From Clostridiales bacterium (lineage in GTDB: Bacteria > Bacillota > Limnochordia > Darwinibacteriales > B1SED10-159), in contig PUOC01000069.1 in the NCBI GenBank assembly GCA_003551965.1, forward strand, positions 1-37,643: a stretch of DNA of 37,643 nucleotides, read 5' to 3'. Position 1 is the stretch's first letter; each line of letters starts with the position of its first letter. Below the pieces are notes generated by a model. That model made no database searches. It was not told the DNA's origin and saw only the letters and a list, made by a program, of their open reading frames with translations. Positions 9,239 through 34,821 of the stretch are shown in pieces. A program made the translations under genes and the position numbers.

Positions 9239-10206
9239 GGCCGTTCCCCCTTCCCCTGCTTGACCGAAGTCAAGAGCCCAACCTCAAGCAGTATGTCACG
9301 AACATGGCGTTCCTCAACCAATCCGAGCCCTTCAAAGGGCGGGGCCATGTGTGATGTATCCAGCACTCGCAGCCATTTCAGCGCAGCTTTGAAAGCAGAC
9401 AGGGCCCGGGCGGAATGGGACTTTTCCTGATCCGGTGTGGAACAGATATCGAAGAGCCGAATCATGCGATTCTGCAGATGACGGGCTTCATCCCACCGTT
9501 CCTCTCGGCAGAGCCGGTACAGAGCAGCATATTCCTGCGGCGCCACATTGGCCAAGCCAGGAACCACCCCCGCGGCCCCGGCATGCAGCACCGTATCCAC
9601 CAGCAGTTCCATGCCGCTCATGACCGAAAAGCCGGGTAAGTTTTCGGCGGCGATGAGCAGTCGGCGAAAAGCCTGCATGTCACCGCTGCTGTCTTTCACT
9701 GCGCAGATAGTCCCCTCCCCAGCCAAGGATATCAGGGTGTCCACGTACAGAGGCACTTTCACCAACAGCGGCACCGTGTAGGCAATCAGAGGTGCGTGCG
9801 ACTGCTCGCGGAGAATGCGGAAATGGTCGCATACTTCCCTTTGGGTATGGAGATAGTAGTATGGCGGGGTGACAACGAAATGCTTTATACCGTAACTGGC
9901 TGCCTGCCGCATGTATTCCATGGCTATGGCCGTACCCGGAGCTGCAATGCCCGCCAGCACGGGGACTCTTCCCCGAACGGTGTTTTGAACCGTAGAAATA
10001 ACCGTGTCTCGCTGGTCCATGGTCAGACTGCAAAATTCACCGCTGGATCCGAGAATGAAAAGGCCGTCAACCCCGGCCTCTATTTGATAATCCACCAAAC
10101 GCTGCAGCGAAACCGCATCAACGTTGCGCTGCTGGTCAAAGGGGGTAATCAGTGGTGGTATGACACCCTCAAAACGCTGTGACTGGCCTTTGGATGCAAT
10201 GGCCAT
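9235..10206 (-). CDS. DHDPS/N-acetylneuraminate lyase family aldolase
   Basis: FEGVIPPLITPFD, GVDGLFILGSSGEF, VVTPPYYY, AVKDSSGD. ORF track starts at 10491, but ATG 10206 (MAIASKGQSQRFEG) fits the family N-terminus and has AAAGG upstream. 4 nt ATGA overlap with the next gene. Confidence 0.85.
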   Translation of the reverse strand: MAIASKGQSQRFEGVIPPLITPFDQQRNVDAVSLQRLVDYQIEAGVDGLFILGSSGEFCSLTMDQRDTVISTVQNTVRGRVPVLAGIAAPGTAIAMEYMRQAASYGIKHFVVTPPYYYLHTQREVCDHFRILREQSHAPLIAYTVPLLVKVPLYVDTLISLAGEGTICAVKDSSGDMQAFRRLLIAAENLPGFSVMSGMELLVDTVLHAGAAGVVPGLANVAPQEYAALYRLCREERWDEARHLQNRMIRLFDICSTPDQEKSHSARALSAFKAALKWLRVLDTSHMAPPFEGLGLVEERHVRDILLEVGLLTSVKQGKGERP

Positions 10207-10535
10207 GGAACCAACTGCCTTTCTCTGCCAAGTATGCCCTGGCCGTTTTCGTGCAAGCCGCGACGTCAGGGAGGCATTCTGCCTTTGTTGCTTGTGTTCT
10301 CTTTGTCGGCGCTGTGGACCTCCAGGCCTGGCAGAAATCTGACGAACACTGCCTCTTGGGGGGTGCAGCATCCTTAGGCAAGGGAAAAACAGCTGTTCAT
10401 AAATCAGCCGTCTGTAGGCTCGCAGCCGGTACCCGCTGCCATCATTCCACGCGGACAGGGCCACAGCACGATAGCAGTCGGGTTGATCCAAGAAGTCCTT
10501 GTCTTTTACAATGGATCAATAAAGGGGTGGTTGCT

Positions 10536-12518
10536 ATGATTCTACGGCTAGAACACGGCGAAATACTACTCCAACTTCTGCAGGCCTCTAAACCAGTTCC
10601 TGTAGAAACATTGGAGCCACAGCCTGCTCTGTATGAACTCCACCTAGCCGGCATTGTGCGCCAAGATGATCCGAACTGCTGGATCTTAACCGATCAGGGG
10701 GGGGAATTGGCCTTGGCGTTGGACCAGCTGATAGAGCCTCCCGATAACCACCAGTGGAGCACCGCCAGCCATGACGACGATGAAAAAACCATTCTCGAAA
10801 AACCAGTCCTGCCCGCCCCCAAAGAATGGTCGGCGGACTTCCGTCTGCTCGGCAGCGAAGTGATCGATCTTCTCGATGCCGCCCGCCGCGGCGGCCGAGT
10901 TGGGCCCGAGGGACAGCAGCCGCTGTGGGCCCGGGGCTTGGCACAGCACGTACGCTATACCAAGCGCAAGCGTGAACGAATCGAGCTGACGGCAGAGGCC
11001 CAACAGATACTGGCGGTGTACAAGGCCGTGAAACCCCGGCTGGAAATTGACTCCGGATTGGCTGCGATCATCCGCAAGCTCCCGCTGGGCCCTACAGAAT
11101 CCAGCCACATGGAGCTAGAGGCATATGATCGGCACAGGCTCGAAAACATGCGTCTGCTGTCCTATTCGCAGCCGGACTCCCGCTTCGCGGCCTTCACGGC
11201 CCTTGGTCAAGCAGTGAAGCGAGCGCTGAACACAGGGGGCTTTGCACCGGAAGGGACTGTACTGTCCGAGGATATCCTGCATGCCATAGACGAAATAGGA
11301 CAGGGAAAGAACATTCCTGCGTCTCGTTTGGCTGTTGTTCAGCAACTATGCTATGTAGGCAGTGCCGGGGAGCTGCTTCCTGCGGGCAGAGAAGCTCTGG
11401 AAGTGCTGCGGCTCTACCGTGACGGACCAGATAGGACCACTTGGAGTTTTTCGATCGATGCCGACGAAGCTGAGATACTGCAGACTGTGGAAGCGCTTTG
11501 GGAGGAGACGCAAGAAAACCCGGACAGGGTACCCACCTTTGATCAACTGCGGCACGAAATGGTGGATCGCAAATCCAAACAGTATAGAGAGCTAATCAAG
11601 TGGTACGGGCGTGAACTCAAAGAGATGCCCGAAAAGCAAAGGAAATTGGCAGAGAAATACGACGCTGCTGCCAATAAGCGCCAGTGGTACGAGGAAAACT
11701 TCGACCTGCGCGCCATGCTCCACAGCCTGGAGTCCTTTGATCTGATTCGCAGTGAAGAAGACGAGAAAAATCGCACTGTCTTTCACCTCACTGAATCCGG
11801 AACGAAGGTCAAACGAGATCAAGATAGAGGGCTTCGCACCGTTTCTTCTCGAGCCGTAAAGGCTATCACGCTGACCAATAAGGAGTTTTCAACGGCACAC
11901 AGCGATTGGATCTCCGAGAGCAAGCAAGCAGGCCTGTTAGGTTCGTTTGAAGCGACCGATGCCGGTCAGATGTACGCTTCACTGGCTTACAACGTATTTC
12001 GCACGCCTTACTTGTCCCATTATGAACTGCTGGTACTGCAGGCTGCACCGGACTACGGATGGAACGAACAAGACCTGATCGACAACATGACCGGTGAAAT
12101 GAACCGTGAATGGACGCGTTGGGCCTTGGACAGACTGGAATCCCGAGAGCTGCTGGAACGCCTGGTAGACGGCAATATTGTCAAAACCAAACCGGGCATT
12201 CTGATGGGCCATGCCCTGTCCGGTGTTCCGAAGGGCATGGGTATGCCGATCAACCCGAGTATCTACCGTGTAGTCAAGGGCATGGCAGCAGCGGGTACCA
12301 TCTACAGCACCGAAAAGAAGGTGCGTGTCTCTTCCGATGGCCTGGCCCAAGCAGTTCAGGAGAGCGGCTTGGCTCCCGAACAGTTTGAACGCTCGGCCCA
12401 GGCAGCCAGAGCCGCAGGGTTCATTGGCGAGAACAGCGTCAATGAGGCGGGGCAAAAGCTTCTGGAAGCCGTGGAACACCTCCAAAGAGCTGCAAGCCAG
12501 GATAGTTATCATGCCTAG
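10536..12518 (+). CDS. Uncharacterised ~660 aa protein with repeated winged-helix-like segments, possibly DUF505 family
   Basis: ATG 10536 preceded by AAAGGGGTGG; sequence MILRLEHGEILLQLLQ...LYELHLAGIV...WILTDQGGELAL resembles helix-turn-wing repeats. DUF505 assignment is from memory and uncertain. Confidence 0.6.
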   Translation: MILRLEHGEILLQLLQASKPVPVETLEPQPALYELHLAGIVRQDDPNCWILTDQGGELALALDQLIEPPDNHQWSTASHDDDEKTILEKPVLPAPKEWSADFRLLGSEVIDLLDAARRGGRVGPEGQQPLWARGLAQHVRYTKRKRERIELTAEAQQILAVYKAVKPRLEIDSGLAAIIRKLPLGPTESSHMELEAYDRHRLENMRLLSYSQPDSRFAAFTALGQAVKRALNTGGFAPEGTVLSEDILHAIDEIGQGKNIPASRLAVVQQLCYVGSAGELLPAGREALEVLRLYRDGPDRTTWSFSIDADEAEILQTVEALWEETQENPDRVPTFDQLRHEMVDRKSKQYRELIKWYGRELKEMPEKQRKLAEKYDAAANKRQWYEENFDLRAMLHSLESFDLIRSEEDEKNRTVFHLTESGTKVKRDQDRGLRTVSSRAVKAITLTNKEFSTAHSDWISESKQAGLLGSFEATDAGQMYASLAYNVFRTPYLSHYELLVLQAAPDYGWNEQDLIDNMTGEMNREWTRWALDRLESRELLERLVDGNIVKTKPGILMGHALSGVPKGMGMPINPSIYRVVKGMAAAGTIYSTEKKVRVSSDGLAQAVQESGLAPEQFERSAQAARAAGFIGENSVNEAGQKLLEAVEHLQRAASQDSYHA

Positions 12519-20118: not shown

Positions 20119-20781
20119 TCATGCCATGAAGGCTATGGCTCCCATGGCTAGGAAATTGGCGACAACATGGGAAAGCACCGGGTACCGAATGGAGTCGGTC
20201 TTCCAAGCCGCCCAGCCCCAACAGAGTCCAAACAAGGTTCCCCCGAATGTCGCCAAGACCGCTCCTTCCACTCCAAAATCTGGCATGACAGCGTAAGGAG
20301 CGATGTGCCAGAGTCCAAACACTGTGCTAGGAAAGAGATATCCGAGAAAACGCTTACCTGGAAAGACTTTGACATAGACGCCTCTTCAGAGCATTTCCTC
20401 GAGAGTTCGGTTAGTAACGGCCACCGGTAGAGAGAGCAGAACCACGGCTATGCTGATCTCTCCCCAGACTTCTGGCAGAGAATACGCCGGGTAGGCAACG
20501 ACAGGTAGAAGGAGCAGAGCCCAACTGAGTCCGTCTATACCATTCCTGGGCGCTGAAAACATCCTTCTGAACGCATTCCAACCCATCATCCATAGAGGGA
20601 GTAGAATGCACCGGAACCCCCAATAGAAGATGTACCCATAGAGAAGGCCTCTAGCTATACCGAACCTGTTTACCAAGGGCGTTAGGACCAGGTAAACAGT
20701 GAGCATCAACACGAATGGAACCAACAGTGCTATGCAGACCTTTGATCCCTCTTCTACCCATAATGACATGGGCCGAAACAA
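20119..20781 (-). pseudogene. CPBP family intramembrane metalloprotease interrupted by one in-frame TGA
   Basis: ORFs 20386..20781 and 20119..20322 lie in the same frame. Joined across TGA 20388-20386 they read ...TNRTLEEML[TGA]RGVYVKVFPGKRFLGYLFPSTVFGLWHIAPY...HVVANFLAMG, with CPBP motifs EExxxR, FxxxH and HxxxN. Confidence 0.75.
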
Positions 20782-20810
20782 TGCAGCCTCTATCCATGGG
20801 CTATTCGGGC

Positions 20811-20866
20811 GACGTAAAGGACCAAAGGCTTGCCAAAAAGGGCTTGCCTGGCCTTGTCCTTACGTC
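20811..20866. other. Long imperfect hairpin in the EcfA-CPBP intercistronic region
   Basis: GACGTAAAGGAC (20811-20822) pairs with GTCCTTACGTC (20856-20866) with one bulged A; inner AAGGC/GCCTT extends the stem. No T-tract. Confidence 0.6.
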
Positions 20867-22304
20867 ACCTGACAAGCCGCTTGAAATATGTGTTCACTAG
20901 ATCCCCCTCGCCTTCCTCCACAATTTGCCCGCTATCCATGATTAGAACGCGGTCAGCCAAGGCGTAGGCTGCTTGCTGATCATGAGTCACGGTCAGAATT
21001 GTTGTATTGTGCTTTTCGTTGAGGCGATCAATCACGTGGATCAGATTGTGCAGATGGGCATAGTCCTGACCGATGGTTGGCTCGTCCAAGAGCAATATGG
21101 GTCGCTCTGCGGCTGCCACGGCGGCAGTAGCCAGCAATCGCTTTTGCCCTTGACTGAGAATCAAGGGATGTCGATCTCGCAGCTTCGTCAACCCGAACAA
21201 TTCGAGGAAATGATCCACTCGGTTGGGACCTCCGGCAGCCAGTTCCACTTCCTGATATACGCTCTCCATAAAGAGCTGATGATTGGGGTTCTGAAACACC
21301 AAACCCACGCGACTGCGATTGAAGGAAGCATCCCGAGCGCTATGGGGTTGACCCAACAGTTTAAATGTCCCATAACTGAGACGTCTACCGCGGCAGAGGC
21401 CAGCCAAGATTTTCATGAGCGTTGATTTGCCGCTGCCGTTCTCCCCGAGAATCACCACACGCTGCCCCTGCGGTACGTGAAGACTGAGATCCCTCACTAC
21501 GGGATCCCGGCCAAACCTATACGAGGCTTCCTCCAGTTCAATGGCTGGATGTGCGGGCTTCGCTTGGCGTTTCTTTGGCATCATCGTCGAGAGGCGCCGC
21601 CGGCGGTCCTCGGCGACAATGTCTTGGGTGTCACTCCAGTCACGCTGAAGTTCGCCATCCTTGAGGTAAAGCAGTCGGTCCACATGGGAACTGGCTAGGT
21701 CTAGCCGGTGTTCGGCCATCACCACGGTTTTGCCTTGCCTGGTCAGTTGCTTGAGGAACAGCAACAGTCTTGCGGCACTCTGAATATCCAGGTTAGCCAG
21801 GGGCTCATCGAGCAAAATAACATCAGGCAGCGTAGCCAGAACCGACGCAATGGCCAGACGCTGCTTCTGCCCGCCGGAGAGATGCTCCACAACCGCATCC
21901 AGATCCACCTGGACGATCTCCCGCAGTCGCTGCAGACGTTCTTCCATCTCAGCCAACGGTACGCCCAGATTCTCCATGCCAAAGACCAACTCGTCCTCCA
22001 CCGTTAAGTGCAGCACCTGGGCATCCACGTCCTGCCATACGGTTCCAATCCTCGCAATCAGTTCCACCGGACTAAATGCCTGCACAGAGTGACCATTCAA
22101 CCGCACCTCGCCCGAGATGGTACCCAACCAAAAGTGGGGGATCACTCCATTGAGACATTTTAGCAAGGTGGATTTGCCGCTGCCGCTTTCACCGCTCAAG
22201 AGTACAAACTCCCCTTGGGACAAGGAAAAACTGATGTTCTTTAGCAGTGCGTCCTCATTCTCCGGCAGAGTATAGGTTAGTTCGCAAACGTCTAGAATCG
22301 CCAT
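20865..22304 (-). CDS. ECF transporter ATPase with two fused ABC domains (EcfA-EcfA')
   Basis: Two Walker A motifs (GESGSGKSTLLKCLNG, GENGSGKSTLMKILAG), signatures LSGGQKQRLAIA and LSQGQKRLLATA, two Walker B motifs (VILLDEP, ILLLDEP). Confidence 0.93.
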   Translation of the reverse strand: MAILDVCELTYTLPENEDALLKNISFSLSQGEFVLLSGESGSGKSTLLKCLNGVIPHFWLGTISGEVRLNGHSVQAFSPVELIARIGTVWQDVDAQVLHLTVEDELVFGMENLGVPLAEMEERLQRLREIVQVDLDAVVEHLSGGQKQRLAIASVLATLPDVILLDEPLANLDIQSAARLLLFLKQLTRQGKTVVMAEHRLDLASSHVDRLLYLKDGELQRDWSDTQDIVAEDRRRRLSTMMPKKRQAKPAHPAIELEEASYRFGRDPVVRDLSLHVPQGQRVVILGENGSGKSTLMKILAGLCRGRRLSYGTFKLLGQPHSARDASFNRSRVGLVFQNPNHQLFMESVYQEVELAAGGPNRVDHFLELFGLTKLRDRHPLILSQGQKRLLATAAVAAAERPILLLDEPTIGQDYAHLHNLIHVIDRLNEKHNTTILTVTHDQQAAYALADRVLIMDSGQIVEEGEGDLVNTYFKRLVR

Positions 22305-22999
22305 CGAATCGTCCCCATTACTACCAAATTCGCAAGCAAAAAGAAAAGATCATAACTTCCGAAGGATACATCCCGATACCTCGTCTGCTGCCGTTTCGTT
22401 CCAAAACCGCGCATCTGCAAGTTCATGGCAATCTGGTCGGACAAGCTCATCATCCGGAACAAAAACGGTACCAGCATCCCCCGGTACATCAACCCAAGAC
22501 GGCGCTGCCCTTTGTCCACTCGCAGGGAAAAGGACTGGATAATCTTCGTCATATCTTCCTTCAAAACCGGAATAAAACGCATGGTTATCAGTAAACCCAC
22601 CCGGAGCATCCAGGGCAAACGCGCCTGGTGGAGAGCCCGCAGGAACTCGTTGGGACTCGTCGAGCCAACGAACAGCGTGAATGAAAAGAAAAGATAAAAG
22701 AAGCGCACAGCGGCCGCCAGTGCCATTGGGAATGTGCCGCCGAACAGCCAACCCACCACGAACACAATAACAGCGGCCGCGCTAACATACGGCAGGGGAC
22801 CCCGCAGTTGGCCCCCGAGACCAGCCAACAACAGAAATCCCCAGAGAAGGAATAGGTACAAGAGCAGTGCCGTTGGACTTGGTGTGGCAAGAGCGTAGAT
22901 GAAGATAAGAATCGTTGTGATCAATTTGACAATGGGGTGCAGCTCTCTCAAAAAGGGAGCTACCCCGGCAAAGGCGCTGCCTTGCATCACTTCACCCAC
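22292..22999 (-). CDS. ECF transporter transmembrane component EcfT
   Basis: ELHPIVKLITTILIFIYAL; MYRGMLVPFLFRMMSLSDQIAMNLQMRGFG coupling region; 13 nt overlap with the ATPase gene. Confidence 0.88.
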   Translation of the reverse strand: MGEVMQGSAFAGVAPFLRELHPIVKLITTILIFIYALATPSPTALLLYLFLLWGFLLLAGLGGQLRGPLPYVSAAAVIVFVVGWLFGGTFPMALAAAVRFFYLFFSFTLFVGSTSPNEFLRALHQARLPWMLRVGLLITMRFIPVLKEDMTKIIQSFSLRVDKGQRRLGLMYRGMLVPFLFRMMSLSDQIAMNLQMRGFGTKRQQTRYRDVSFGSYDLFFLLANLVVMGTIRWRF

Positions 23000-23548
23000 T
23001 TAACGCATAATGGTGGTACGCCGAAACTCACTTCCAACACGGATTCCCAGCACAGCCCCCATGCCGCCAGTCACTGCGCACAATATCGCCACAGCGGCCA
23101 ATACAGGTGTGCTGCGGAAGAGGTCACCCAAGGGCATTTCGCCCAGAAACAGCGCCCCGAACAAAGCACCTACCACAGCCATCACAGCCATGTACAGGCC
23201 CGAAGCTCCAATGATTCGACTGCGCTTGGGAAGGCCTCGCTGCGTCAGAAAGTAGAAAAGGTCTGCAGCCACACCGCTGATCAAGAGGAACCCCAGGATC
23301 ACCGGTGATATGAAGAGCAGTACCACGCCAGTGAAAAACGAGATCAACGTGAACAGCCCATGTTTGTCGATTCGCATCAAAGCCAGAGCCATCAGCAGTC
23401 CATAAAAGGGAGCCACCACTAAGTTGCGCAGACCTGGAACGGGTACGGCCACAACCAGCGGAACGGTTACGTAGCTGAGCACATTCATAGCAGCGGCAGT
23501 CATAGCGCTGTAGGTGATATCCTTCAGATTGTACTGCATTGTCTTCAT
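23000..23548 (-). CDS. Predicted ECF substrate-specific (S) component, substrate unknown
   Basis: 182 aa, about 5-6 hydrophobic helices, immediately upstream of EcfT with no gap. Confidence 0.75.
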   Translation of the reverse strand: MKTMQYNLKDITYSAMTAAAMNVLSYVTVPLVVAVPVPGLRNLVVAPFYGLLMALALMRIDKHGLFTLISFFTGVVLLFISPVILGFLLISGVAADLFYFLTQRGLPKRSRIIGASGLYMAVMAVVGALFGALFLGEMPLGDLFRSTPVLAAVAILCAVTGGMGAVLGIRVGSEFRRTTIMR

Positions 23549-23636
23549 CCTCTCGCATATCTGCTGCTTGCCGGTTACGGGTGCCCTTCGCGAACCTTAC
23601 GGAAGAACAGCCCTTACGGGTTAGCACACCCTATCT

Positions 23637-25832
23637 TCAAGCGCTCTGAGCACTGTCCTCAACCACAAGCACTTCTCCCTTGTAGGCATCAACCACCAGT
23701 GGCGTGCCATCGGCCACATCCATAATGTTCTTAGCTGAGATCACACAGGGGATACGCCGTTCGCGGGCTAGAATCGCAATGTGGCTCAGCATAGCCCCCG
23801 TTTCCGCCACGATGGCGCCGGCCTTTCGCAGCAGCGGCAGATAACCCATCTCAGCGTTTTGCACCACGATAATGTCTCCTTCATCCACTTTCCCAAAATC
23901 CTCTAGCCCCCGGACAACGCGGGCTGGCCCCTGTACCCTTCCTGCAGAAGCGGGGTAACCCTGGAATCTATCTTGAATCTCCGACTCTGCTAGGATAAAA
24001 GGTGGTTCATCGCCTTTGATAATCGCTGGCAGCCGGTATTCCTGCGCTTTCATCATATCTTCTTTCACTCTTGCGGCCTTGGCCTGGTAACTGGCACCCG
24101 CAAACTGAACGATATCGTCTAGATTCAGGTAGAAGATGTCATCAACGGCTGCCAGAGCATCCTGTTCCACCATCACCGCACCTAAGCGCAAAAACAGCTT
24201 CCGGAACAGGTGATAGCTGTAGGCGTAAAAATAGCTCAACTTGTTCTTCTTGTGCGTTGCCAGATCAGCCTTCGCCTTCTGACGCAGAAACCTGCGGCTC
24301 AGCACAGGCCGTCCCTCTGAAGTATCGGCTTCGGATCCATCCGCTGTCGCAAGCAGGGTATCGAGAATATCCTGTTTTTCCCTCCAAGTAGGTTGGGAGA
24401 AGTCATTGGTGTTGGCACTAAAGTGCCCGAAGCGCTCAAGCATCAACGCCTTCTGCTCCTCACGACTCCGCGTTCTTTTCCAGCTTAGAAAGCTATCAGG
24501 TTCATAGAGCGCGTTTTCCTGCAGATAAGCCGAAGCTGGCAACTGCATCTGCATGTCCTTCACAGCATTAAGGTAGCGCCTTTGCTTGGAGTAGATCATC
24601 AACGGCAGGATGATGTTGTACATAGCACCCTTTTGGTTGTGGGCCTGCAACTGTGGTAACAGCTCCAACAACTGTTCGTAAGACCTCGCCTCTGCAATAG
24701 CCGTTTCAAGCTGCAGCGACCGTTGATGATAGGCCTCCAGCTCCTTATCCAGGTTGCGGTACGTATTCTGGAACCGGCGATACACTGAAGCCATGCGAGG
24801 CAGCATCCGCAGCATGCCCAAGGTTGGTCGGAACTTGACCTGCACCCGCTCATCGTGAATGCCCTGCAGCTCTTCCAGAAACGCTTCGCGAAAGCCCATC
24901 TTTCTGAATGCGCCGCCCAAAACCCCCATATTGAAGTAGGCCTGGTAATGGAAGGGTTTGGCCAACTCTTCGGGATGGAGACCCGTGTCACCGATAATCG
25001 ATTCGAGAAGCTCCACCCATGCTTGATTCACTACAGGAATGTTGATATCCCAGACTAACGGCTTAATCAAGCCTGGAAGGTAGTTCTTGGCAATATCGTT
25101 CTTGTACACATTATATGCCTGGCCGGTAGTAATCGGTCGCACCTGCAGCCAGATGAAGGCGGAGCCATCGTAGGCCCATTCTACGTCAATAGGTACACCT
25201 ACACGCCGTTCCACACGTGCCGCATCCCGGCAAAACGAAACAACCTTTGCGGCGGGGATAGGCAGTTGCTCGTCAGAATCATACAACAGCTGCTTCCACT
25301 TGTACTTCAAACGGATGGGTGCAGTGCCCCCTTGAACCAGTTGATCTCCCAAACCCTGAACGGCCTCCAAGAGCAATTCATTGGCGCTGGTCACAGGATT
25401 TTTGCTGAAGAGAACGCCGGAATAGACGGGTTTAATCATCTCTTGAACCATAATAACATCCTGCTTCGAAGAATCGCTGCCGGCAACCGCCTCATAACTG
25501 GCGGCCACCTCCTCCATTCCGTGGTACACCTCTTGAACGGTGGCCAAGTCCAACACCGTAACAAACTGGCCGGCTTTGGAACTATCGAGACTATCCTCCT
25601 CGCCCTTGGCCGAGCGAACGCAGTATCTCATATCTGCATCCAACTGCGCTGCCAGGAAGTCCTCGATCATGGGCCTCTGGGCACGCACCGCTTCCACAGT
25701 AATGCGATCCGCCACTAAGCCATACGTCTTCGGAATCTTGATACCGCTGCGCTTCAGTTCACTAAGCCCAAAGAACTTGTAGCTCATGTTCGCAACGGCT
25801 TCGTCGATCGTTACCCATTTCATGCTTGGCAC
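23637..25832 (-). CDS. PEP synthase/PPDK-type dikinase lacking the PEP-binding TIM barrel (rifampin-phosphotransferase-like architecture)
   Basis: N-terminal ATP-binding domain (YCVRSAKGEEDSLDSSKAGQFVTVLD, VIMVQEMIKPVYSGVLFSKNP, EAVQGLGDQLVQGG) and C-terminal swivelling phosphohistidine domain (GDIIVVQNAEMGYLPLLRKAGAIVAETGAMLSHIAILARERRIPCVI). ORF ends right after the swivelling domain. Confidence 0.88.
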   Translation of the reverse strand: MPSMKWVTIDEAVANMSYKFFGLSELKRSGIKIPKTYGLVADRITVEAVRAQRPMIEDFLAAQLDADMRYCVRSAKGEEDSLDSSKAGQFVTVLDLATVQEVYHGMEEVAASYEAVAGSDSSKQDVIMVQEMIKPVYSGVLFSKNPVTSANELLLEAVQGLGDQLVQGGTAPIRLKYKWKQLLYDSDEQLPIPAAKVVSFCRDAARVERRVGVPIDVEWAYDGSAFIWLQVRPITTGQAYNVYKNDIAKNYLPGLIKPLVWDINIPVVNQAWVELLESIIGDTGLHPEELAKPFHYQAYFNMGVLGGAFRKMGFREAFLEELQGIHDERVQVKFRPTLGMLRMLPRMASVYRRFQNTYRNLDKELEAYHQRSLQLETAIAEARSYEQLLELLPQLQAHNQKGAMYNIILPLMIYSKQRRYLNAVKDMQMQLPASAYLQENALYEPDSFLSWKRTRSREEQKALMLERFGHFSANTNDFSQPTWREKQDILDTLLATADGSEADTSEGRPVLSRRFLRQKAKADLATHKKNKLSYFYAYSYHLFRKLFLRLGAVMVEQDALAAVDDIFYLNLDDIVQFAGASYQAKAARVKEDMMKAQEYRLPAIIKGDEPPFILAESEIQDRFQGYPASAGRVQGPARVVRGLEDFGKVDEGDIIVVQNAEMGYLPLLRKAGAIVAETGAMLSHIAILARERRIPCVISAKNIMDVADGTPLVVDAYKGEVLVVEDSAQSA

Positions 25833-26290
25833 CGCCTTTTGTGCTTTTCCAATAACCTCTCCAACCGGGGCCTATTATGCCGCTGGATCATAATGAATGG
25901 AATATCAAATATCGTTAGTCCCACTGCCCAAAACAGGCCGAATGGGAACGGATGCAGTAGGCAATAGATCACCAGCGAACCCAAACCCAACCAGTGAATA
26001 GCCTCCGCTCGCATGGTCTCTAAGACGAAGGTCCCCAAATAGGCTGTCTGTGACGATTCTAGGCGCGCCTTGGCAAATCCGCGATCGTTGATCTGCCCAC
26101 CGTCGGGAAACAGGTGTTTCCAGCGGTGGATGAAAAACCAGCGCTTGTACACCTGGCCACCCTGCTCCCACCCACGCGGACGAAACCATGCCCGGTACTT
26201 GGCATACACTTTATCAGGCGTCTTGTGGCAGATATATACTGCAAGCATATGTAAGCTGAACCAGATCAGAGCATCCCGCAGTATCCACAT
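25820..26290 (-). CDS. Glycosyl-4,4'-diaponeurosporenoate acyltransferase (CrtO)-like protein
   Basis: KRWFFIHRWKHLFPDGGQIND, ETMRAEAIHW and IPFIMIQRHNRPRLERLL match the pattern of Staphylococcus aureus CrtO as I recall it. 13 nt overlap with the dikinase gene. Confidence 0.75.
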   Translation of the reverse strand: MWILRDALIWFSLHMLAVYICHKTPDKVYAKYRAWFRPRGWEQGGQVYKRWFFIHRWKHLFPDGGQINDRGFAKARLESSQTAYLGTFVLETMRAEAIHWLGLGSLVIYCLLHPFPFGLFWAVGLTIFDIPFIMIQRHNRPRLERLLEKHKRRCQA

Positions 26291-26295
26291 CGACG

Positions 26296-26883
26296 TTACC
26301 GCCCCACCCCTGCATATTTAAAATCATCTCGCTGTTCGCGATTCTGCGTGGCTAAGAGCACAACCAATGCCATCGCCAGCCCAAAGATCAACCAACTCCC
26401 TTCCACAATGAAGAGCAGCAGTGGACTCGCAGCTAAAGCCACACCAACGCCGATCCGGGAGTTCTTGGTTACAAAGAACAAGAAGCCCCAAAGCACCAGC
26501 AAAACTGCTGTGGCCAAGGGTGCCAACCAGAGCAGCCCCCACATAGTGATCGTCCTGGCCTTACTTCCCCGAAATCGAAGAAAGACCGGGAACACGTTCC
26601 CGATGATCAAGGCGGCCAAGAGGACGTAGAGCTCATCTCGCCCAAGTCCCAACCAATACTGGGCAGCGAGCAGGACAGTAAACACCTTCAACACATCCGT
26701 CAGCACCGAAATATAACCTACCCAGCATGGGGCGTGTTGGAATGTGTTGGCAATACCCACATTCTTTGTCCCCACCTTCTGGAGCTCGACGCCAGTGGTC
26801 CACCGAGTCAAGATGTAACTGACCGGGATACTTCCGACCAAGTATGCGACTAGAACCAGTGCCGCCAGCAAGGCCAGGTCCAT
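26296..26883 (-). CDS. PlsY-like (glycerol-3-phosphate acyltransferase family) membrane protein with divergent motifs
   Basis: AYLVGSIPVSYILTRW, KVGTKNVGIANTF (cf. GSGNxGATN), IGNVFPVFLRFRGSKART (cf. GHxFPVFLxFKGGKGVAT). Confidence 0.85.
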   Translation of the reverse strand: MDLALLAALVLVAYLVGSIPVSYILTRWTTGVELQKVGTKNVGIANTFQHAPCWVGYISVLTDVLKVFTVLLAAQYWLGLGRDELYVLLAALIIGNVFPVFLRFRGSKARTITMWGLLWLAPLATAVLLVLWGFLFFVTKNSRIGVGVALAASPLLLFIVEGSWLIFGLAMALVVLLATQNREQRDDFKYAGVGR

Positions 26884-26948
26884 ATCCTCCCTCCTTCAAC
26901 TCTCAAGCACGCCTCGGCTTCAGGCGGGTCAAGGTCCGTCATCGGCCT

Positions 26949-27755
26949 TCATGAGAACAAATCGCGTTTGACGAATAACGACATGAGAAAACGCCACACG
27001 ATTTTTCGCGGCGTTAGCCAGCTGATACGCGTTCCCGTTCTTGGGCTGCGGTCGATCCGTTGCGCAAGAAACTGTGTAACAGTCTCGGGCTTGTCCCCCA
27101 AGATGTTAAAAACTCGAACCACTTCGGGTCTTGGTGCCACCGAAGACCCAAAGCCCGCCGGATGCTTCACGAGATCGGTCACCACCATACCCGGACTCAA
27201 GAGGCACGCCTTGACACCGGAACCCCGCAGTTCCTTCGCCAGGGCCTTGGTGAAATACGTCAACCCCCTTTTGGTGCTTCCGTAAAGACTCAGTCCCCGG
27301 CGCATTTCGTTATTGCTGCCGAAGCCTTCCATGTTGTAGATGGTGCCATACCCCTGTTCGATCATACCAGCAGCGGCCACTTGCGAGCCATAAACAACAC
27401 CCACAAGGTTCGTGTCCACCAACCTCTGCACCTCGTCAGCAGTCACCTCCCATATGGATGTCTCTGTATGGACGATCCCAGCATTGTTGATCCATATGTC
27501 CACAGTCCCCCAATGGCTCTGTGCCCGTCGCCACAACGTCTCGACTTCCTTGCGATCTGTAACATCGCAAAGCACGCATTGCACTTGATAGCCTTGGGTC
27601 GCCAAGGATGCGGCGGCCCGGTGGAGATTATCGCTGTTGACTCCAGATAAGGTAACCCTGTATCCCATCTCTAAAAATCGTTGTGCCAAGGCAAACCCGA
27701 TTCCTCTGCTGCTACCTGTAATGACAATGTTTTTCACGCCACCTACCGCCTTCAT
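26949..27755 (-). CDS. Short-chain dehydrogenase/reductase, NYC1/NOL-like subfamily
   Basis: IVITGSSRGIGFALA; IYNMEGFGSNNEMRRGLSLYGSTKRGL (YxxxK); LLSPGMVVTDL; C-terminal FNILGDKPETVTQFLAQRI...ISWLTPRKIVWRFL resembles chlorophyll b reductase NOL/NYC1. Confidence 0.85.
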   Translation of the reverse strand: MKAVGGVKNIVITGSSRGIGFALAQRFLEMGYRVTLSGVNSDNLHRAAASLATQGYQVQCVLCDVTDRKEVETLWRRAQSHWGTVDIWINNAGIVHTETSIWEVTADEVQRLVDTNLVGVVYGSQVAAAGMIEQGYGTIYNMEGFGSNNEMRRGLSLYGSTKRGLTYFTKALAKELRGSGVKACLLSPGMVVTDLVKHPAGFGSSVAPRPEVVRVFNILGDKPETVTQFLAQRIDRSPRTGTRISWLTPRKIVWRFLMSLFVKRDLFS

Positions 27756-28921: not shown

Positions 28922-30220
28922 CTAAAACGTCACGCTGTAACGCAGCCCGGCCACCCACTGCGTGCTACTAAAGCCAAACTCCGCCATGTCATCCCCGTAG
29001 TACCAGCTAACGCCGGCGTAGGGTCGGATGTCGTTCCAGCCGCGGTGGCTGATCTGCGCCGTCACCTGGCCAGACGCGTCGTCCAAATTCCCCAGCCACA
29101 GGCTTGTTGCCGAAAACCGAGTCCGCAGCAGTTCGCTCCACTGCAGAGACAGAGCTCCGTAGTGGCGCCCCGGCTGACTCAGGTCTGCTGGCGCCAGTTC
29201 GCCCGACAAGAGCAGCAACGGAAATGCGGGGTGCCCCAGTACACTCGCGTCCTTATATCCCTCACCATTGTAGAAATACTGCCCGGCGGCGCCGATAGTA
29301 AAGAGACGATCTGGATCGCGCCGATTCACACGAAACCCCACCGATGCCTGCAGCTGCAGATCCTCCCGGCTCTCGGCCCGCAGCCGCCCATCCTCACCCA
29401 CGACAGCATAGCGGCGATCCGTTCCGGCCGCTACCACCGCCTCGCCAAAGACGGCCACAGTCCCCGCGATCGTCGACGAAAGCGTCAACATCGCCCGAGG
29501 AACTCGATCCGGCCGATAGAAGGCACCAAGTCCCCACTCCGTCCGGCCCGTCACAAACGTCAACCGCGGCGCCACCGCCAAGCGAACGCCATCGTCTGCC
29601 TCATCCCACAACGTAAACAGATGGAAATCCCAGTGCCGCTGGGGATAGTGCACCCGCAGCGCTATAGGCCCTTCCCGCAACGCCTCAGGCTCTTCCGGAT
29701 CCAGGCGCCCTACACTGATGACATCGGCCGGGCTGAAGAAATACCCCACACCCCAGCGCACTGTCTGCTTTCCCGTGCGGAAGAAAACCTTCTGGGAAGC
29801 GTTCCAGTCGACAAACCATTCCAACAACCGGCCCTTGAGATGCCCATCGTCCGGATACTCTAACTCCAGATCCCCCTGGACAAACAGCCGCGTCGCAGCA
29901 CTCGGGCGCCAGTCTGCATAGAGCCGCGTACTGCCGACCGCTGACGCACCCTGTCGACTAACCAACGAGTCTGCATCCGCGTGCGTCCACTCCCAATCCA
30001 GCCCAAACCGGCCGCCCAAATCCAGCGAACCTGGCGCAATGAGCAGTGTGGCGTGATCAGCCTGCGAATCTTCGTCAATAACCAGCATTTCATCACCAAA
30101 CAAATCATCACCAAACAGTTCGTCCCTCTCGCTCGCTTGAGCCAGACCTACATCCAGCTCCACTAGAACCACCAGTAGGCTTGCTGCCACTAAAAGGGTC
30201 AGCGCTGCCCATCGTACCAT
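28922..30220 (-). CDS. Predicted outer-membrane beta-barrel protein (porin-like/DUF1302-like)
   Basis: Signal peptide; alternating amphipathic strands rich in aromatics (TRLYADWRPSAATRLFVQGDLELEY, RLLEWFVDWNASQKVFFRTGKQTVRWGVGYFFSPADVIS); C-terminal strand WVAGLRYSVTF ends in Phe. Confidence 0.75.
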   Translation of the reverse strand: MVRWAALTLLVAASLLVVLVELDVGLAQASERDELFGDDLFGDEMLVIDEDSQADHATLLIAPGSLDLGGRFGLDWEWTHADADSLVSRQGASAVGSTRLYADWRPSAATRLFVQGDLELEYPDDGHLKGRLLEWFVDWNASQKVFFRTGKQTVRWGVGYFFSPADVISVGRLDPEEPEALREGPIALRVHYPQRHWDFHLFTLWDEADDGVRLAVAPRLTFVTGRTEWGLGAFYRPDRVPRAMLTLSSTIAGTVAVFGEAVVAAGTDRRYAVVGEDGRLRAESREDLQLQASVGFRVNRRDPDRLFTIGAAGQYFYNGEGYKDASVLGHPAFPLLLLSGELAPADLSQPGRHYGALSLQWSELLRTRFSATSLWLGNLDDASGQVTAQISHRGWNDIRPYAGVSWYYGDDMAEFGFSSTQWVAGLRYSVTF

Positions 30221-30236
30221 GACCTCCAGCTCCTTC

Positions 30237-31016
30237 CTAGCGGTTCACCTGCTCGAGATAAGCCCTTGTAAACACATAGTCCGGGATCGGCTGCACTGAC
30301 ATCTCGCTGAACGCGATCTGGGTTCGCTGCCCCTCGGCCAGCTCGTCCACGAACACCATTTGGCGAGGTATCACACTGTCACCCACACGCGCGTAACTGG
30401 GAAACAAAGCCGTGCGCATCAGCCGCTGCGTCAGCGAATACTCTTCCACTTTTAGGATTAGCGCGTTCTCTTGCGTCACCCACAGCTTCAAATAGGGGTA
30501 GGTCACCTCATCGTGCAGCGCCGCCAGCAACACAATGTACACGCTGTTGACACCGAGTTGCCCCTCCGTGTACTCCGTGATCTCGTAGTCCTCGGCGTAA
30601 CTCCAGGCCGTGAAATCGGAATTGCGCGCATCCGAATCCTGAAACGTCTCCTTGAGTGATGTGTGGGAAAACTGGCGGCTGGAGGGATCATAGAACCAAA
30701 GATTCTCGCCGTCCATCAGGTAGCCCTGGCCCCGCTGCACTCGCGGTTCCTGGATGAGCATCGCGAACTGGTCCTCCCGATCGCGACGAAACTGCCGGAC
30801 AACTGTCTGCTCCACACCTTTCTCCGGATCCTCGGTAATCACGGTCAACAGGGCCGCAAAGTCGCCGTCTCCAAACGTACTGCGCGTGTCCACCTCCCGC
30901 AGAATCGTCTCGATATGGGCGAAATCCTCCGCCCCCGCCGCCGATTGCAGGCCGCCGCCCAACACAAGCAGCATTCCCAAGACAACAGCTGCCCGCAGGC
31001 AAATGGTGTTCCTCAT
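30237..31016 (-). CDS. Outer membrane lipoprotein-sorting (LolA-like) protein
   Basis: Signal peptide; GYLMDGENLWFYDPSSRQFSHTSLKETFQDSDARNSDFTAWSYAEDYEI resembles LolA-like lipoprotein-sorting proteins. Confidence 0.82.
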   Translation of the reverse strand: MRNTICLRAAVVLGMLLVLGGGLQSAAGAEDFAHIETILREVDTRSTFGDGDFAALLTVITEDPEKGVEQTVVRQFRRDREDQFAMLIQEPRVQRGQGYLMDGENLWFYDPSSRQFSHTSLKETFQDSDARNSDFTAWSYAEDYEITEYTEGQLGVNSVYIVLLAALHDEVTYPYLKLWVTQENALILKVEEYSLTQRLMRTALFPSYARVGDSVIPRQMVFVDELAEGQRTQIAFSEMSVQPIPDYVFTRAYLEQVNR

Positions 31017-31092
31017 GGGTTTTCCTCCTATCGTTAGAGCTTCGTTAACTGACGCTCAAAAGTTCCAAAACGCCACCACTGCAGCCCTCGCG

Positions 31093-32403
31093 CTAGAGAT
31101 GGCCGCCGAGAGCCTTGATTGGAGGTAAGTCAGCCGCCGAACGCGCCGGCCAGTACGCCGAGGCCAGACAGACGAAGGTCAAGATTGCAAAGTGCAACAG
31201 GACCACCTGCGGAACTAGCTGGAACGTAAACCTCCCTTGGGCGAGAAAAAACTGCAGGCCCGGTTCGGCCACCGTCAGCCGGGACACCACCGTCATGGCT
31301 CCTAAGGCCAACCCGAGGCCGACAACGCCGCCGAACAGTCCGAGAAACGCTGCCTCGGCCAGGAAGATGCGCCGCACCGTGGGACGCTGCATGCCTAGGG
31401 CCCGCATGGTGCCGATCTCCTTCGTCCGTTCGAGGACGATCATTCGGAACGTATTCGTAATTCCTACCACAATGATAACCAGCAGCACTGCGAACACGCC
31501 CAACGACAGCCGGTCAAGTACCAGCACCACGGCTTCAATCGGTTCCATGATGTCGTTGATCGTTGCGATCGTGAAGCGGATGCCGTCCCAGGGTTCAGGG
31601 GCCTGCTGCTGGCCGAAGGGTCCGAACCCGAAGGCCGCAGCCTGGTCGTCCCCATCTTCCCCAACCGGCCGCAGAGGCAGCACGTCGCGGAACTGGTCGG
31701 CCATCTTGTCCGCCGCAAACAGATCATGCAGGAACAGGTTGAGAGACTGGTAGCTGTCCGATGGGAGGTTCAACAGTGTATTGACGTATGCCCGGTGGCC
31801 GAATGCCGCCGACATACCGAGTTCCGCCTGGTCTTCAATGAACGCCCGCACCCAAAACTCGCCGACGTTGCGCTGCCCAGTCACGGTATCCAGGCGTATC
31901 AACACCGTCTCTCCCAGCTCCACCCCCAGGCGCTGAGCCAGAGAGTCCGGCAGGGCAATCGCTTGATCGTCTTCCATCACCGCTTCCAGACTGCCGGCGG
32001 TGACCGCAACACTCGTGCGCAGCCGCTCTTCGGCCTGGAAGTCTACACCGTAGAGCATCTGGGCCGACTGCCGCGAGCCGAAGACGACGGTTCCGAACGT
32101 CTGGGAACGGCGGGTGATGGACGCGATCTCGGCGCTGTTCGTTTCGAGCAAGGTCTGCAGTCTATCGTCGAAATCGATGCGGGAAACCACGCGCCCGGTC
32201 TCGGTGATCTCCTGTCCGCTGACAAAGACGTGACCGCCCAGCGCATGTGACAGATTGTCTCGCACATTGGTCAGCATGCCCTCGGTGAATCCGTTCATCA
32301 GGGTAATCATCAGCATGCCGAAGGCGATAGCCCCGGCCAGAAGCAGCGAACGCCGTTTCTGTCGGAACACGCTGCGGACAGCTGTCTTTAGTACCGTACG
32401 CAT
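31093..32403 (-). CDS. FtsX-like ABC transporter permease (LolC/E or MacB-type)
   Basis: N-terminal TM, large extracytoplasmic domain; VVGITNTFRMIVLERTKEIGTMRALGMQRPTVRRIFLAEAAFLG. Confidence 0.9.
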   Translation of the reverse strand: MRTVLKTAVRSVFRQKRRSLLLAGAIAFGMLMITLMNGFTEGMLTNVRDNLSHALGGHVFVSGQEITETGRVVSRIDFDDRLQTLLETNSAEIASITRRSQTFGTVVFGSRQSAQMLYGVDFQAEERLRTSVAVTAGSLEAVMEDDQAIALPDSLAQRLGVELGETVLIRLDTVTGQRNVGEFWVRAFIEDQAELGMSAAFGHRAYVNTLLNLPSDSYQSLNLFLHDLFAADKMADQFRDVLPLRPVGEDGDDQAAAFGFGPFGQQQAPEPWDGIRFTIATINDIMEPIEAVVLVLDRLSLGVFAVLLVIIVVGITNTFRMIVLERTKEIGTMRALGMQRPTVRRIFLAEAAFLGLFGGVVGLGLALGAMTVVSRLTVAEPGLQFFLAQGRFTFQLVPQVVLLHFAILTFVCLASAYWPARSAADLPPIKALGGHL

Positions 32404-32412
32404 GTGCTCACC

Positions 32413-33897
32413 TCATTCACTGTGAATGGCCTTGACCGGCGGCGTATTCAGGATTATCGCAGTCGGGTAGAGACTCGATACCACGGCCACTGCCACCAGA
32501 AGGGCCAACGACACGGCCACCGACGCCCACGAAAGCGTCGGGTGCAGGACGGATCCGCCAAAAATGATCTCGAAGAACATGTTCGGCGCCTGGATACCCT
32601 GTGACCTGAGCAACGTCAGCAGCACGCCTCCCGCCGCGATGCCCACCGCGCCCGAGATTACGGAGAGGAGCAGCGCTTCCCACAACATCATTCGGCGGAT
32701 GAAACCTTTCTGCGCTCCAATGGCCCGCATGGTGCCGAACTCGGACAGGCGCTGCGTCACCGATATGACCAGTGTGTTCATGATGATAATGACAGCGACG
32801 ACAGCGATCACCAGGACCACGGCATTGAACGCCCATCGCACACCGAACGAAACGTCAGCCATGGGGCCCGCCGCTTGTCGCCAATCGGCCACCTTTCCGC
32901 TGACATTGCGGGCGTCGAAAAAAGCGTCGATGTCGGCCCTGGCCTGATAGAGATACCGCTCGTCCGTAAGCCGCAGCAGAACGAAGTGCCAGGCGGCGGG
33001 ATCCTGCCAGTCCGGCAGAGCTGATTCAGCATCGGTATCCGGGCCGAGGATAGCGAGAAAATCCTGCTCACCGGCGGCGCCTTCCTCGGCTACATCCACG
33101 AGGAAGTCATCGGTTTGAGCGAACAGCTCGTCGACTTCTTGAATCTCGAAAACCCGCTGCTGTTCGGGGCTTAATTCGCCGGGTTCGACGCGAGTCAGCG
33201 CCATGCCGCTGAGCGCCCGCAGCGTGGTGATGTCTACTAGCGACACCATGTCCAACTGGGGGTTGGAGTGATGAAAGGCGTACATACCCACGACGGGGAC
33301 TTCTCGAATCCGCATCCCACCTATCGTGCTTAGGCTGGTCAGAAGCAATTTGTCTCCGGTTTCAAGGGGCGCCTCAAGGCGTTCATTCAAAAACTCGGCG
33401 GCAGTCGCACTGAGGAGCACACCCGTTTCGCCTGGTTCCAGAAAACGGCCGGCCGTCAGGCGAATATTGTTCGGGAAGGCATCCTGGTAGGCCGCTGGTT
33501 CGATGCCGAACAGGGATACAGGCGTTCGAGCGTCCCCACGGGCTTCTGCCAGGGCAAAACCCGTGCCCTGTGGGCTGGCGGCCGCTGTGTACGGTTGATC
33601 ATGCAGAAAATCCAGGAGTTCAGCATAGGCTGGCACCAGCGGAATTGCTCGGTCCATGGCCGTCATGTCTTGGTAGCCGAACATGGTCAGCCGGCCGGGA
33701 GCCGCGCCGCTGATCATCAGGTGGCCTGTGAAGTTCTGGATGTAGAGGCGCTCGATCCCCTGCGCCGCCGAATCCATGAGCGAATTGCCCACCACCAGAA
33801 CCAGCATGCCTATGGCCAGCAGTGTTCCGACGATAACCGTTTTAGCGCGATGTTCCCGGAGGCTCCGCCACGCGATAGTAGCGATGAGAGTGTTCAT
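32413..33897 (-). CDS. FtsX-like ABC transporter permease (LolC/E or MacB-type)
   Basis: IIIMNTLVISVTQRLSEFGTMRAIGAQKGFIRRMMLWEALLLSVISGAVGI; N-terminal TM and periplasmic domain. Confidence 0.9.
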   Translation of the reverse strand: MNTLIATIAWRSLREHRAKTVIVGTLLAIGMLVLVVGNSLMDSAAQGIERLYIQNFTGHLMISGAAPGRLTMFGYQDMTAMDRAIPLVPAYAELLDFLHDQPYTAAASPQGTGFALAEARGDARTPVSLFGIEPAAYQDAFPNNIRLTAGRFLEPGETGVLLSATAAEFLNERLEAPLETGDKLLLTSLSTIGGMRIREVPVVGMYAFHHSNPQLDMVSLVDITTLRALSGMALTRVEPGELSPEQQRVFEIQEVDELFAQTDDFLVDVAEEGAAGEQDFLAILGPDTDAESALPDWQDPAAWHFVLLRLTDERYLYQARADIDAFFDARNVSGKVADWRQAAGPMADVSFGVRWAFNAVVLVIAVVAVIIIMNTLVISVTQRLSEFGTMRAIGAQKGFIRRMMLWEALLLSVISGAVGIAAGGVLLTLLRSQGIQAPNMFFEIIFGGSVLHPTLSWASVAVSLALLVAVAVVSSLYPTAIILNTPPVKAIHSE

Positions 33898-34577
33898 GGT
33901 TGGCTCACCACCTGGCCGTCGAGGAGTGGGATCACGTGGTGCGCCATGGACACAATGCTGGGATCATGGGTAGAGAAAATGAATGTCGTGTTCAGCTCTT
34001 CGTTCATCTTGTGCATGAGCTCCACGATGGACTGCCCCGTCTTGGAATCCAAGTTAGCCGTCGGTTCGTCGGCTAGGACGATATGCGGTTTTGTGACCAA
34101 GGCGCGGGCAATGGCCACCCGCTGCCGCTGCCCGCCAGACAGTTCGCTTGGGCGGTGGCGGATATGTTCGTGCAGGCCGACGGCCTCTACAAGGTACTCC
34201 AGCCAGTCCTTTTTGGCACCGCTATCCATAATGGGCTTGCCCAGAAGCAGCGGGAACTCGATGTTTTCCAGCACGTTCAGAACCGGGATCAGGTTGAACG
34301 ACTGAAAGATAAAGCCCAGCGTGCGGTGGCGCAGCACCGTCAGCTGCCTGTCCTTGAGGCCGCTGGTGCACTGGCCTTGGATGTATACCTCTCCCTGGGT
34401 CGGGGTGTCAATGCAGCCGATCATGTTGAGGATCGTCGATTTTCCCGAACCGGACGGTCCCGTGATAGAAACAAAATCTCCAACGTCGATCTGCAGGCTC
34501 ACACCCCGCACTGCGGGAACCTGCGTTTTCCCCAACTGATACACTTTGTGTACGTCCCGCAGTTCCACAATGCTCAT
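33894..34577 (-). CDS. LolD/MacB-type ABC transporter ATP-binding protein
   Basis: GPSGSGKSTILNMIGCIDTPTQGEV; FIFQSFNLIPVLNVLENIEFPLL; LSGGQRQRVAIARALVTKPHIVLADEPTANLDSKTG. ATG 34577 preceded by GGAGAT; 4 nt overlap with the permease. Confidence 0.93.
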   Translation of the reverse strand: MSIVELRDVHKVYQLGKTQVPAVRGVSLQIDVGDFVSITGPSGSGKSTILNMIGCIDTPTQGEVYIQGQCTSGLKDRQLTVLRHRTLGFIFQSFNLIPVLNVLENIEFPLLLGKPIMDSGAKKDWLEYLVEAVGLHEHIRHRPSELSGGQRQRVAIARALVTKPHIVLADEPTANLDSKTGQSIVELMHKMNEELNTTFIFSTHDPSIVSMAHHVIPLLDGQVVSQP

Positions 34578-34821
34578 ACTGTCATCTCCTAGACGGGAAA
34601 GAATCACATTTCCTACTATTAAGAATATCACGTTTCGGGTGGGGCGGGAAGATGATATCCATTGGGAATCAAGGCAATCGAACCCGACCCTTTCCACAAG
34701 CATGGGGCTTTTCCCAACCATAACCAACCACTACAACACCGGTGCACTCGACATTCGTGGGTCATGGTATGGCAGGTAGGTTGTATTCGCAGTTCCTGTG
34801 CAAAGTGGTTCACTTTTTGTG

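Follow-up and report, generated by a model that had tools for sequence, protein, structure and literature searches.

A recurrent gene cluster joining a PlsY-like protein, a small-molecule dikinase and an ECF transporter in Bacillota: a probable pathway for small-molecule uptake and modification

The stretch of DNA analysed here (the window, 37,643 nt) comprises positions 1 to 37,643 of contig PUOC01000069.1 from the Clostridiales assembly GCA_003551965.1 (genome G000; Limnochordia, Darwinibacteriales, B1SED10-159). Its minus strand carries, from 27755 to 20865, a run of seven genes encoding a short-chain dehydrogenase/reductase (SDR), a membrane protein related to the acyltransferase PlsY, a CrtO-family protein, a dikinase and the three subunits of an energy-coupling factor (ECF) transporter (Table 1). 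An initial annotation had described seven co-directional genes with tight junctions, and all seven open reading frames were confirmed at their coordinates and strand, as were, from those coordinates, the 13-nt overlaps at CrtO/dikinase and EcfT/EcfA and the adjacency of EcfS and EcfT at 22999/23000 (gap of 0 nt). The remaining gaps measure 65 nt (SDR-PlsY), 5 nt (PlsY-CrtO) and 88 nt (dikinase-EcfS). Strong Pfam assignments were obtained for six of the seven genes: adh_short for the SDR (6e-44), G3P_acyltransf for the PlsY-like protein (1e-28), CrtO (5e-30), PPDK_N and PEP-utilizers for the dikinase (5e-21 and 3e-18), CbiQ for EcfT (3e-15) and two ABC_tran domains for EcfAA. No Rfam element or tRNA was found, the dikinase-EcfS gap yielded no structured RNA, and promoter and terminator patterns in the region were not in excess over shuffled sequences.

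Table 1. Genes of the cluster and the adjoining CPBP gene (window coordinates).
Feature	Coordinates	Strand	Characteristics	Status
SDR oxidoreductase, FabG-like	26949..27755	-	YxxxK catalytic motif, Tyr158	accessory
PlsY-like membrane protein, divergent paralogue	26296..26883	-	altered glycerol-3-phosphate and acyl-phosphate pockets	core
CrtO-family (PF18927) putative acyltransferase	25820..26290	-		accessory, 3/4 lineages
RPH-type small-molecule dikinase	23637..25832	-	ATP-grasp ~1-240, middle substrate domain, C-terminal swivel His684	core
EcfS, substrate-binding subunit	23000..23548	-		core
EcfT transmembrane coupling subunit	22292..22999	-		core
Fused tandem EcfA-EcfA ATPase	20865..22304	-		core
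CPBP (Rce1-like) gene	20122..20781	-	in-frame TGA at 20386-20388	outside system

Relatives of the cluster were recognised in four further genomes. The first (G001, locus L027, contig PWMW01000091 of a metagenome-assembled genome, MAG) carries CrtO-dikinase-EcfS-EcfT-EcfA on one contig that begins inside CrtO, with a 98% identical dikinase, and a member of the window's own family (G002, L030) carries SDR-PlsY-CrtO-dikinase at 62-67% identity (SDR orthologue 65%) on a contig ending in the dikinase. A Tissierellia MAG (G455, L028) shows a short CPF_0552-family gene followed by PlsY-CrtO-dikinase at 42-50% identity, together with an ECF module at 72-80% identity that lies on another contig, preceded by a different gene; the G+C of these two contigs (0.352 and 0.365) is far from that of the window (0.55), so contamination from the species of the window does not account for the ECF match. 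The fourth genome (G337, L078) has, on one strand, genes for a PlsY-like protein, an alpha/beta hydrolase, a methyltransferase, EcfS, EcfT, EcfAA and the dikinase, the hydrolase and methyltransferase standing in place of the SDR and CrtO; identities to the window are 39% (PlsY-like), 37% (EcfS), 29% (EcfT), 39% (EcfAA) and 32% (dikinase). A scan of genome contigs found two relatives only. Across 398 genomes sampled over the phylum, the dikinase profile scored 1637 bits in G000 and 348 in G337, the next match reaching 96. The EcfS profile, which unlike that of the dikinase contained the G337 sequence, scored 338 and 298 bits in these two, the next match reaching 102. Within this sample, a genome with a strong match to one of the two proteins thus always had one to the other.

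In every lineage for which upstream sequence is available, the dikinase has a PlsY-like orthologue no more than a few genes away. Since no SDR orthologue was found in G337 or G455 (best matches 27-32%) and PF18927 was absent from G337, the core, as judged from these genomes, is the PlsY-like protein, the dikinase and EcfS-T-AA, the SDR and CrtO being accessory and lineage-specific, the SDR having orthologues in the window's own family alone. Because this core recurs in distantly related Bacillota MAGs, the cluster is probably a real pathway for small-molecule uptake and modification. Finding the dikinase and ECF genes apart in other genomes had been named by the initial annotation as evidence against its grouping; this did not come about, for they are adjacent in G337 and share a genome in G455. 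Conservation elsewhere therefore holds for the core but not for the seven genes as one unit, G337 lacking SDR and CrtO and G455 keeping its ECF genes separate.

The ECF proteins of G000 and G455 are much more alike than the enzymes, although the distance to G337 is about the same for the two sets (28-40% identity). This suggests separate histories of the ECF module and the enzymes, ending in the same genome (G455); a difference in constraint alone does not easily explain the contrast, which would be accounted for if the ECF module had been exchanged and then retained in enzyme-bearing genomes. The high ECF identity between genomes of G+C 0.55 and 0.36 likewise suggests that the importer has moved laterally between distantly related Bacillota. 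Among plasmids, searches with EcfS and with the PlsY-like homologues gave nothing relevant, and dikinase matches in Roseobacters and Rubrobacter stayed at or below 29% identity, with no similar neighbours. A truncated and frameshifted EcfS (72% identity to that of the window over 61 residues) was also observed in another genome (G357; L107, 8470-8787), in a region with apparent insertion sequence (IS) transposase genes; it would fit mobility of the ECF genes.

The dikinase combines, in a single chain, an N-terminal ATP-grasp domain, a middle domain and a C-terminal swivel domain (PPDK_N at residues 61-172, PEP-utilizers at 650-719). Its closest solved structures are rifampin phosphotransferases (RPH), which align at both ends. 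The RPH ATP-site residues Lys22, Arg117 and Thr136 correspond to K19 (assigned by motif position, outside the HMMER alignment), R73 and T92, and the swivel histidine to H684, so that the residues whose roles are established in RPH (PMC4844700) are intact; T92 is replaced by Ser in L028 and L078. The residue two positions before the swivel histidine is Leu, the place of a regulatory Thr in phosphoenolpyruvate (PEP) synthase (PMC12167813). The initial annotation's "PEP-free dikinase" stands as a dikinase, on the Pfam matches and the RPH alignment, and is better named an RPH-type small-molecule dikinase. PEP synthase and pyruvate phosphate dikinase were rejected as identities, given the C-terminal swivel domain and the lack of any PEP/pyruvate-binding barrel among the Pfam matches. 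A true rifampin phosphotransferase was likewise rejected: the acceptor pair Arg666-Glu667, required for phosphotransfer to rifampin, aligns, when read across a gap, with Lys-Asn in the window and Lys-Glu in L078, so a rifamycin substrate is not supported, and no rifamycin-inactivation model scored above its cut-off. Anti-phage defence was set aside, as PADLOC gave no match for the dikinase, CrtO or PlsY.

The PlsY-like protein and its homologues were aligned with A. aeolicus PlsY and with the canonical PlsY encoded elsewhere in the same genome. All four homologues share S35T, T41A, H92N, G103S, S142V/M and H177N; Lys104 (Loop3) and Asn37 are kept, Arg45 is Gln in the window only, and position 180, Asn in PlsY, varies (Q/E/N). 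Neither the glycerol-3-phosphate (G3P) site, formed by the phosphate clamp Ser35, Arg45, Lys104 and Asn180 with Ser142 and His177, nor the acyl-phosphate contacts Thr41 and His92 are preserved, and mutation of these pocket residues costs most of the activity of PlsY, S35T retaining 17% (PMC5700162). With most binding residues replaced, the protein is unlikely to be a G3P acyltransferase; the designation as a divergent PlsY of an acyltransferase family holds for family and divergence, not for that role. Loss of most G3P and acyl-phosphate residues beside a normal PlsY in the genome indicates a repurposed paralogue, and the uniformity of the replacements argues for a new substrate pair rather than decay.

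A complete ECF transporter, as initially proposed, is borne out by the CbiQ-like T component and two ATPase domains. EcfS itself has no Pfam or NCBIfam match and its profile none in the PDB; it was assigned by position, size and relatives, its orthologue and other relatives matching MptD/Trep_Strep S-component models, weakly. It holds one histidine in the window and none in the G337 orthologue, so that none is conserved. The nearest other complete S-T-AA module lies in genome G414 (L106, 4977-13014; EcfS 29-33%, EcfA 39-43% identity), beside two ATP-binding cassette (ABC) half-transporters, one of them CydDC-like, and two proteins with NEAT domains, one of which is a fusion to a MarR-type protein, the NEAT matches being below the Pfam cut-off. 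That module is in itself a candidate haem/iron ECF locus.

Regarding the accessory genes, the closest solved structures to the SDR are generic FabG-like SDRs, and the CrtO protein matches nearly the full PF18927 model (104.7 bits; cut-off 27.3). Neither dikinase nor PlsY genes adjoin the other PF18927 loci, which were surveyed in 12 genomes of the phylum, so a CrtO gene by itself does not mark the system. Three such loci (L038, L039, L041), from small genomes of one genus, hold the domain within longer open frames of ~390 aa.

These observations are compatible with an uptake-and-modification operon, a reading that we prefer but hold tentatively, at somewhat less than even chances. The dedicated ECF transporter would import a small, probably lipophilic, molecule. 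The imported molecule would then be trapped and activated by the dikinase, which would move the beta-phosphate of ATP, via His684 on its swivelling domain, to one of the molecule's hydroxyl or carboxyl groups. The PlsY-like paralogue may use the phosphorylated compound, by analogy with the acyl-phosphate donor of PlsY, and transfer a moiety to an acceptor other than G3P. Substrate or product could be tailored by the SDR and the CrtO-family acyltransferase in the window, and by the alpha/beta hydrolase and methyltransferase in G337. The proposed hand-over from dikinase to PlsY-like protein is modelled on Firmicutes FakAB, whose kinase-made acyl-phosphate is coupled to PlsY (PMC12594616, PMC9136124). 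The specific version, in which an ECF-delivered lipophilic acid or alcohol receives phosphate from the RPH-type dikinase and a PlsY fold with a new pocket transfers it to a non-G3P acceptor in an undescribed sequence of uptake, activation and transfer, is rather unlikely. If true, it would to our knowledge be unprecedented in pairing an enzyme of PlsY fold with a phosphohistidine dikinase.

Several points weigh against the uptake-and-modification operon. No substrate emerged from the analysis, all of the evidence is sequence, and the AlphaFold models were too poor to help (mean pLDDT, the predicted local distance difference test, 40 for the dikinase and 63.5 for CrtO, the latter with no PDB fold match). 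The PlsY donor may not be an acyl-phosphate, since Thr41 and His92 are changed as well. G002 (79% complete, its contig ending inside the dikinase) yielded no EcfS, the G455 ECF genes are not adjacent to the dikinase, and the nearest other S-T-AA module, in G414, belongs to a NEAT (haem/iron) locus lacking a dikinase. The "lipid-like or isoprenoid-like" small molecule of the initial annotation is, with that module in view, one possibility only.

That same module makes a haem or metal chelate a serious rival substrate. In a tetrapyrrole or metal-chelate salvage system, the enzymes would modify haem, a haem-like tetrapyrrole or a siderophore brought in by the ECF transporter; precedents are the haem ECF importer LhaSTA (PMC7299338) and the siderophore ABC importer EqbHIJ (PMC3672683), and G337 adds a UbiE-type methyltransferase and an alpha/beta hydrolase that weakly resembles BchO. 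However, LhaS reportedly coordinates haem by way of histidine (PMC7299338), of which EcfS has one in the window and none in G337, S components of about 30% identity need not share a substrate, and dikinase and PlsY-like genes, neither of which lies near the G414 module, are not expected in haem uptake; such salvage is judged improbable. The same low standing is given to two independent operons, SDR-PlsY-CrtO-dikinase and an unrelated ECF importer, brought together by chance. The 88-nt gap before EcfS and the separate ECF module of G455, with its own rate or history, would agree with this, but dikinase and ECF genes are also adjacent in G337, in a different order, and strong orthologues of dikinase and EcfS are confined to the same genomes.

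Modification or detoxification of an antibiotic or phenolic compound from the environment is a slightly weaker candidate still. It would suit the solved relatives of the dikinase, as RPH phosphorylates rifampin and HpeHI acetovanillone, and antibiotics and phenols are both among the substrates of small-molecule dikinases (PMC4844700, PMC12167813); nevertheless, the replaced acceptor pair and the silence of the rifamycin-inactivation models speak against it, and a resistance gene needs no conserved ECF importer or PlsY-like partner. The lowest probability falls to tailoring of a carotenoid or isoprenoid glycolipid with CrtO acting as in staphyloxanthin synthesis: the PF18927 match invites it, but scans of the cluster and of neighbouring proteins revealed no carotenoid gene, G337 has no CrtO, and the family occurs elsewhere in the phylum away from dikinase and PlsY genes.

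Beyond the cluster, the CPBP protease proposed as its trailing member does not belong to it. The frame, read from 20781 to 20122, is stopped by the TGA listed in Table 1, which falls within an apparent EExxxR motif (TLEEML*RG); as PF02517 is matched beyond the stop (2.3e-10), the interruption reflects either a broken gene or an error in sequencing. L027, the 98%-identical relative, has no CPBP gene downstream of the ECF genes but a transposase of IS110 type (type judged by eye) in that place. Elsewhere in the window, the region 28922-34727 encodes a LolA-like outer-membrane lipoprotein-sorting protein (30237-31016), two apparent FtsX-type permeases, an ABC ATPase and, next to these, an unassigned 432-aa protein resembling an outer-membrane barrel, a set that would fit diderm Bacillota, and 10179-12518 encodes a 779-aa protein matching DUF505 across the full model (4e-175).

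The claim that no characterised pathway has this gene set still stands: all component families are known, no published description of their combination was found in the searchable literature, and the conserved combination matched no described pathway. The cluster would set the substrate question at once for orphan MptD/Trep_Strep-like EcfS proteins, orphan small-molecule dikinases and PlsY paralogues that are unlikely to acylate G3P.

Among known systems, the ECF genes resemble those of LhaSTA in forming a single operon for S, T and a pair of fused A domains, and EcfS, weakly and through its relatives, the MptD/Trep_Strep S components; unlike LhaSTA, they are linked to dikinase and PlsY-like genes, and EcfS has no conserved histidine. 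The dikinase follows the domain order of RPH, HpeHI, CreHI and phenylphosphate synthase (ATP-grasp, middle substrate domain, C-terminal swivel histidine), with the ATP-site Lys, Arg and Thr and no regulatory Thr before the histidine; it differs in its strongly diverged middle domain, unconserved acceptor Arg-Glu, length (731 aa against ~870) and setting among ECF and PlsY-like genes. CrtO shares nearly the whole PF18927 model with staphyloxanthin CrtO, yet lacks carotenoid genes nearby and is accessory here. The PlsY-like protein belongs, as PlsY does, to PF02660 and shares its Loop3 Lys104 and Asn37, whereas phosphate-clamp and acyl-phosphate residues are consistently replaced in the four homologues. 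FakAB with PlsY offers the functional parallel, in that an imported acid would be phosphorylated and handed to a PlsY-type enzyme; the proposed system would depart from it in an unrelated kinase family, a dedicated ECF importer and an acceptor other than G3P.

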